A DNA stretch of 33,091 nt from Acidobacteriota bacterium. Its GTDB lineage: Bacteria > Acidobacteriota > Vicinamibacteria > Vicinamibacterales > JAKQTR01. The position numbers and the translations under genes were made by a program. Each line of letters opens with the position of its first letter. Position 1 is the stretch's first letter. Below the pieces are notes generated by a model. The model was given only the letters and a program-made list of their open reading frames with translations. It searched no databases and was not told the DNA's origin. Positions 32,333 to 33,083 of the stretch are shown here, piece by piece. The DNA lies in the NCBI GenBank assembly GCA_026393755.1, contig JAPKZO010000020.1, positions 1-33,091 of the forward strand. Reading direction: 5' to 3'.

Positions 32333-32368
32333 TGGGGACGGTTTCGTCGCCTGCGTACGGCGGCCTGC
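32331..32368. repeat. 38-bp direct repeat flanking rnpB, left copy
   Basis: Begins at the stop of the NtrX-like gene. It matches 33046-33083 at 30 of 38 positions without gaps, sharing TGGGGACG, TTTC, CCTGCGT and CGGCGG blocks. Its right end extends into GGCGGC/GCCGCC, a 6-bp hairpin. Confidence 0.55.
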
Positions 32369-32408: not shown

Positions 32409-33041
32409 GCCGCAGTGAGCCAGACGACCGCTGTTTCCGGAGTGCGGGCGGTACGGATGCCGTCGGCATCACCGGGAAGGGAGGAAAGTCCGAACTCCGC
32501 AGGGCAGTGCGCCGGGTAACGCCCGGTCAGGGTGACCTGAAGGAAAGTGGCACAGAAAATATACCGCCCGCGTCGTGGTCCGGTAGTGCCGGTTCGGGAG
32601 TGTCGCGCAGAGGATCACGCGCGACAACTCCTTCCAAGTGCGCCGAGCAAGCCACTTGGGTGAGGAGTGTCGCGCAGAGGATCGCGCGCGACAACTCCTT
32701 CCAAGTGCGCCGCTCCAGCAAAGTGGGGTACAGGAAGAAGGAGGGAGATCCCAACCGGCAATACCGGGCCACGGCGAGGGTAAGGGTGAAAAGGTGCGGT
32801 AATAGCGCACCGCGCCCGCGGCAACGCGGGTGGCAGGCAAAACCCCGCACGGAGCAAGACCAAATAGGGAGGCGCAACAGGGTGGCCCGCCCGATGCCTC
32901 CGGGTAGGTTGCTGGACCCCGTCAGCGATGGCGGGGCTAGAGGAATGGTCGTCACCCCGAGCGAGGCCTTCGGCGCTCGTACAGCACGGGCGCTCGGGCC
33001 GAGTCGAGGGGTACAGAATTCGGCTTACGGTTCGCTGCGGC
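32409..33041 (+). ncRNA. rnpB: RNase P RNA, type A, with enlarged P12
   Basis: All conserved regions of bacterial RNase P RNA are found in order: GAGGAAAGTCC (32481-32491), GGTAACGCC in a P8-like loop, ACAGAAA (32552), AAGGGTGAAAAGGTGCGGTA with AGCGCACC after it (32772-32802), CAAATAGGG, GGTAGGTTGCTGGA, AGAGGAATGGTCGTC and ACAGAATTCGGCTTAC (33013-33028). Pairing of 32410-32420 with 33030-33040 makes helix P1 and sets the ends. The RNA cleaves tRNA 5' leaders with RnpA. At about 633 nt it is far longer than the usual 350-420 nt: the P12 arm between 32568 and 32775 takes roughly 200 nt and contains a tandem duplication. One change in a conserved block is GGTAATAGCGC where most have GGTAAGAGCGC. 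Confidence 0.95.
32598..32731 (+). repeat. 67-nt tandem duplication inside the rnpB P12 arm
   Basis: Unit 1 (32598-32664) and unit 2 (32665-32731) share their first 48 nt at 47 of 48 positions; the tails have diverged. Each unit encodes a GC-rich hairpin in which GGAGTGTCGCGC pairs with GCGCGAC-AACTCC. Unit 1 also has a CCAAGTG/CACTTGG hairpin. A long helix at the base, 32566-32599 with 32749-32775, holds them on the P12 stem. Confidence 0.85.
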
Positions 33042-33045
33042 ACTT

Positions 33046-33083
33046 ACTGGGGACGATTTCAAGACCTGCGTGCGGCGGTCTGC
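33046..33083. repeat. 38-bp direct repeat flanking rnpB, right copy
   Basis: Directly follows rnpB and matches the left copy at 32331-32368 (30/38). The window ends 8 nt later, so what follows is unknown. Confidence 0.55.

Follow-up and report, generated by a model that had tools for sequence, protein, structure and literature searches.

The rnpB gene of an Acidobacteriota bacterium of the order Vicinamibacterales carries a greatly expanded P12 arm, which we interpret, with a probability of roughly 0.68 and on the basis of sequence comparison and predicted folds, as a tolerated, old and order-specific expansion in which a hairpin module has been tandemly multiplied. The window, that is, the whole stretch of DNA analysed here, spans 33,091 nt (contig JAPKZO010000020.1 of assembly GCA_026393755.1, positions 1 to 33,091). 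The module consists of a GGAGU...ACUCC hairpin followed by a UUCCAAGUGC linker, lies inside a covarying arm, and occurs twice in the window (Table 1) as well as in the rnpB of eight other genomes of the order.

Table 1. Coordinates of rnpB, its expanded P12 arm and the two tandem units in the window
Feature	Position	Strand	Evidence
rnpB, class A RNase P RNA, 631 nt	32412..33042	+	RF00010, 244.5 bits, model 1-367
Expanded P12 arm	32566..32781	+	Rfam alignment, insert between P12 strands; fold z -10.6
Closing helix, 5' strand	32566..32599	+	minimum-energy fold
Closing helix, 3' strand	32749..32781	+	minimum-energy fold; covariation of the corresponding helix in six other arms
Repeat unit 1, 67 nt	32597..32663	+	direct-copy search; R1 hit 32597-32647, 29.5 bits
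Unit 1 conserved module	32597-32645	+	hairpin 32597-32631 and linker UUCCAAGUGCGCCG 32632-32645
Repeat unit 2, 67 nt	32664..32730	+	direct-copy search; R1 hit 32664-32714, 27.5 bits
Unit 2 conserved module	32664-32712	+	hairpin 32664-32698 and linker 32699-32712

The initial annotation had named the gene rnpB with its universal core intact, and the full-length RF00010 match obtained with Rfam cmscan (E 1.2e-78, gathering threshold 100), which spans the model from end to end, bears this out: the RNase P RNA core looks intact, and no other RF00010 match at E ≤ 0.001 was found in the whole genome. The same covariance-model alignment places the insert between the two P12 strands, and so inside P12, as had been proposed, and not outside it. 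Further inserts appear in this alignment in the P3 loop (32431-32478) and near the 3' end (32951-33015); compared with the window and 400 kb of the genome, neither is repeated at E ≤ 0.01. A separate observation is that one repeat occurs on both flanks of rnpB (32333-32368 and 33048-33083, 29/36 identical), with a pair score equalled in none of 2000 single-letter shuffles. By eye, related copies lie around rnpB of the same-genus genome G001 but not around that of G002 or G003; in a comparison that covered the window and 400 kb of the genome, more partial copies were noted near 382.1-382.2 kb on contig C28.

The predicted fold of the arm reaches -137.4 kcal/mol, a value equalled by none of 200 shuffles. 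The long closing helix described earlier is present in the minimum-energy fold, with outer pairs 32566-32569/32778-32781 and 32571-32585/32762-32776 and inner pairs 32587-32594/32753-32760 and 32596-32599/32749-32752, the last three pairs taking the first bases of unit 1. In this unconstrained fold the two units pair with each other as a rod; folding each unit into a local hairpin costs 7.7 kcal/mol (-129.7 kcal/mol), and the fold of the window alone may fit either arrangement. Single units fold on their own to -19.5 and -19.9 kcal/mol, with the palindromic stem present. No known RNA family was recognized within the arm, where two microRNA matches fell far below threshold.

The window arm is extreme in length, though not alone. 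Among the 162 genomes of the order, rnpB scored above the cut-off in 131, and from the window and 130 fetched loci we extracted 130 arms (L214 yielded none), of which 129 were usable after L052, whose value was an artefact of an N run, had been dropped; L220, a truncated record, was kept. At 226 nt, a length that like all others in this comparison includes ~15 constant flanking bases, the arm region of the window is the second longest of the 129, against a median of 54 nt, and 32 of them measure at least 100 nt. The longest (271 nt) belongs to L051 of G040, where an unrelated 39-nt unit occurs in three copies (39, 39 and 38 of 39 identical) plus a partial fourth, so tandem growth of P12 has happened with another unit too.

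A direct-copy search found the two units of the window at a spacing of 67, 89% identical over 64 nt, and a letter-by-letter comparison gave 58/67 identities in total. The tandem duplication with a 67-nt period that had been proposed is thus present, but near-identity is confined to the first 49 nt (48/49), the last 18 nt matching at only 10/18; the unevenness has p = 5e-5, with a boundary chosen after the data were seen. This near-identical stretch comprises a single hairpin (GGAGUGUCGCGC...GCGCGACAACUCC) and the linker. Tandem Repeats Finder reported no repeat at a score of at least 30, as expected because fewer than two full similar copies are present. The earlier suggestion of recent duplication or conversion fits the 49-nt hairpin-plus-linker and not the remaining 18 nt, and we infer that the 49-nt module was recently copied, is maintained by conversion, or is selected.

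Searches of the window's whole genome led us to reject a dispersed-repeat origin of the unit. Of 14 matches to the 132-nt repeat region at E ≤ 10, the best besides the region itself covers 22 nt (E 0.15), which leaves it without a second copy there. Reading the arms of relatives by eye showed the hairpin and linker in several, and R1, a 42-position covariance model built from five of these with the window left out of training, matched only the two units at E ≤ 1. The search for the 48-nt core elsewhere in the genome, which had been put forward as a check, found no dispersed copies: the core pattern occurs at the two rnpB places and at two others, with one and two mismatches, and the one-mismatch place is without the linker. 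The unit is therefore not a mobile repeat of this genome, one of the possibilities raised earlier; it instead proved to be common to P12 arms of eight other genomes.

This emerged from a search of the 162 genomes of the order with R1, in which 40 first-look candidates were scored per listed genome. Scores of at least 27.5 bits were found at 12 places in nine genomes (G114, G015, G037, G020, G139 with three, G018, G091, G054 and the window's genome with two), and all 12 lie in rnpB, as located by Rfam for G114, G139 and G091 and by coordinates for the rest. The best score outside rnpB in the order was 25.4 bits, and four non-rnpB places that were checked (24.6-25.4 bits) have no RNase P RNA beside them. 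The module was thus found in 9/131 rnpB genes of the order, the eight genomes besides the window's belonging to three further families. Unit number, whose comparison had been put forward as a check, varies among related rnpB genes: G139, of another family than the window, has three tandem copies at 47-nt spacing, a second case of module multiplication. In this genome (L115), AGTCGGGAGGGGCTGACG-like units also form a short array in tandem just upstream of rnpB. Across the four families the base of the hairpin is conserved, and so is the linker in most copies; it is off consensus in G015, in G018 and in the third of the G139 copies.

R1 was also run on a phylum-wide sample of 396 genomes, with 16 candidates scored per listed genome. 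Five genomes outside the order had six places with 26.7-34.3 bits, none in RNase P RNA and all without the linker by eye, so the 29.5 and 27.5 bits of the window's units convince only together with position, matching linker and context. An exact pattern of hairpin ends plus linker was found at 8 stretches in 84,980 species genomes, where ~14 were expected by chance; in three of the 8, which belong to rnpB of Acidobacteria MAGs, the hairpin pairs on inspection by eye, and around the other five an exact rnpB core motif is absent within 200 nt. The linker pattern in loose form was rejected, being overall no better than chance: with up to 3 mismatches it gave 61 matches in 37 of 80 genomes versus 133 for a backwards control. 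At up to 2 mismatches seven matches remained, four in rnpB and three elsewhere (G023, G072, G007). A viral source of the module was likewise rejected, the single match lying on a contig without an Rfam hit and its hairpin being unpaired by eye, and a plasmid search returned no match.

Covariation indicates that the pairing of these arms has been retained. Across the six single-copy arms (of the nine, the window and G139 were left out for copy number and G054 for divergence), 41 consensus pairs had 91.7% of cells paired and 21 pairs showed a double change, with 34 double-change cells compared to 11.9 in shuffles (reached in 0/500) and 3 to 9 in slid controls. Most of this whole-arm covariation comes from the closing helix (14/19 pairs), and the distal hairpin is weaker, with 76% of cells paired. 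For the module hairpin itself, the 12 copies yielded 8 double-change cells versus 2.1 in shuffles (0/500) in an alignment fitted to R1, which five of the nine genomes also trained, whereas the number of pairs with a double change was 3/10 versus 1.6 in shuffles, 50 of 500 of which reached 3; five pairs are invariant. The many compensatory changes in the closing stem imply that its sequence drifted while pairing stayed, and we infer from them that the arm is probably old. Whole-arm similarity among the nine arms, expressed as z values against single-letter shuffles, runs from 0.7 to 14.4, with two pairs at only 0.7 and 1.7, and for the window arm against the other eight from 2.4 to 9.9. The low similarity of some strong members weighs against an old order-specific arm. 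Three weak candidates (G016, G033 and G055), which are not counted as module members, gave z of -0.6 to 8.2 against the nine strong arms (40 shuffles each).

The recurrence of the module in independently assembled genomes, where it pairs with compensatory changes, also bears on whether the arm could be an artefact of assembly or binning. The genome is in 42 contigs and an N run follows the end of the window, but rnpB stands after what we take, from its motifs, to be the sigma-54-type regulator that is also present in relatives (G016, G045 and G002 among them), and we regard an artefact as scarcely credible.

Among close relatives, P12 turns over faster than the core: core stretches that are ~97-99.6% identical are found together with unrelated arms. 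Within one genus, the module arm of G114 is replaced in G113 by an arm of 159 nt that holds another palindrome and in G116 by one of 55 nt, although the core stretches of G113 and G116 are identical to those of G114 at 267/268 and 266/268 positions respectively. The window and the same-genus G001 share 259/267 positions in core stretches and have unrelated arms; the corresponding values are 259/268 for G018 versus G110 and 261/270 for G139 versus G141. The arm of G001 contains a pattern, CTTCGNCGGGCAGGCCC, that was matched 191 times across 65 of 80 genomes and never more than 10 times in one genome (control 95); it may be a dispersed palindrome of low copy number. When 129 rnpB cores stripped of the arm were placed on a tree by a quick method (of 125 inner branches, 18 are starred and 54 open, and some branches are long), the nine module arms required 8 changes. 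Vertical inheritance from an old arm would thus entail many losses, and arms may have been exchanged between lineages. A side observation on the same tree is that the rnpB core of L064 (G020) groups with the window and two genomes of the window's family (SH-aLRT 91) while its genome is placed in another family, a possible rnpB exchange between families.

Some arms are occupied by palindromes that are dispersed in their genomes. At E ≤ 0.001, and with counts that include the rnpB copy and often score both strands separately, the P12 palindrome of G113 has 80 matches in its own genome, 68 in the sister G116 (whose own short arm is without it), 13 in G114 and 1 in G046, and those of G036 and G021 have 84 and 62 in their own genomes; neither of the latter two matched the window's genome. 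Three such arms mark P12 as a landing place, though not for the window's unit today. The earlier idea of a mobile repeat in a tolerant loop thus fits P12 of these three relatives and not the window. That a dispersed palindrome landed in the window's P12 and was later duplicated would follow their example, but the unit has no other genomic copy, its relatives were found in rnpB only, and the closing stem is rich in compensatory changes; such an origin is largely refuted for the window's unit, and we give it a very small chance.

The same patchy presence among close relatives would suit an arm that behaves like the intervening sequences of 23S rRNA, RNase III cutting the closing helix to leave a two-piece RNase P RNA. 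The longest uninterrupted predicted stems of the nine module arms measure 15-23 bp, a kind that RNase III can cut, and reach at least 20 bp in 6/9 compared to 6/120 of the other arms, a contrast that is partly a length effect since a long arm has room for a long stem. In the window itself, however, no uninterrupted stem exceeds 15 bp, and we found no literature joining RNase P RNA with RNase III-fragmented intervening sequences; we consider this explanation very unlikely. A broader proposal, in which P12 would be an exchange site for cassettes (palindromes and the rnpB-only module), with lineages gaining, swapping and losing arms more quickly than the core evolves and with at least some arms cut by RNase III to give a two-piece ribozyme RNase P, also appears distinctly improbable.

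The linker is better conserved across families than an entirely neutral appendage would require, which tells against a merely tolerated arm. Alternatively, the arm could be a selected functional domain, with the hairpin and linker binding protein or RNA or docking on another part of RNase P. Two or three copies would then raise avidity, and the module has been multiplied in two lineages; moreover, the hairpin base and mostly the linker were kept in four families while the closing stem diverged with compensatory changes, and a passage of PMC4919922 describes binding of RPP38 to a P12 kink-turn. Yet same-genus relatives with a near-identical core do without the module, which so few rnpB genes of the order possess, the linker departs from consensus in three copies, and the arm contains no known RNA family. 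We therefore hold a selected domain to be unlikely.

We favour instead the tolerated, order-specific expansion. P12 is a peripheral stem of the specificity domain, variable between species, and the window has an order-specific form of its arm that looks old, in which a long closing helix encloses a hairpin of the GGAGUG...CACUCC type, the conserved linker (UUCCAAGUGCGCC) and additional stems. The hairpin-plus-linker module would have been duplicated in the window's lineage, probably via replication slippage at the palindrome, and the arm would have no catalytic part, serving as a structured, tolerated appendage and at most as a docking site. P12 is also where arms get lost, replaced or occupied by dispersed palindromes, as seen in relatives. 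An essential RNA with a conserved core thus has one stem that is wholly different between genomes with near-identical cores, and copies of dispersed palindromes sit within a ribozyme gene. These arms offer a natural series for studying the tolerance of an essential RNA, the retention of inserts in the mature molecule and the origin of tandem RNA modules, and they make total rnpB length or P12 a risky phylogenetic character in this group.

In a search of mainly non-subscription literature we found no report of this arm or of palindromes in bacterial P12, but several known systems resemble it in part. STRRs are heptamers dispersed in the genome. In some cyanobacteria they occur as tandem repeats within rnpB, and some members of the present group likewise have tandem repeats there, but the window has a 49-nt hairpin module with a 67-nt period and no dispersed copies. 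REP-like dispersed palindromes share with the window's unit its palindromic nature, and dispersed palindromes occupy P12 of three relatives, but the unit is present as two rnpB copies only and not as the many copies typical of that class. A remark in PMC2858038 that P12 is sometimes dispensable gives cyanobacteria as the example and cites the STRR work. In archaea and eukaryotes, ES5.1/ES5.2 (P12.1/P12.2) are expansions on the same stem, at the P12 tip, according to a portion of PMC12974513; P12 expansions of these groups are said there and in part of PMC4919922 to bind RNase P proteins, and the window arm resembles them in its position. The 23S rRNA intervening sequences, the subject of PMC4990558, are patchy long-stem inserts in an essential RNA, and the module arms are patchy too (nine arms, 8 changes), but the former are excised, whereas the window arm is known from its sequence and predicted fold. 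P12 expansion as such is already known, and the arm of the window is a variant of it.
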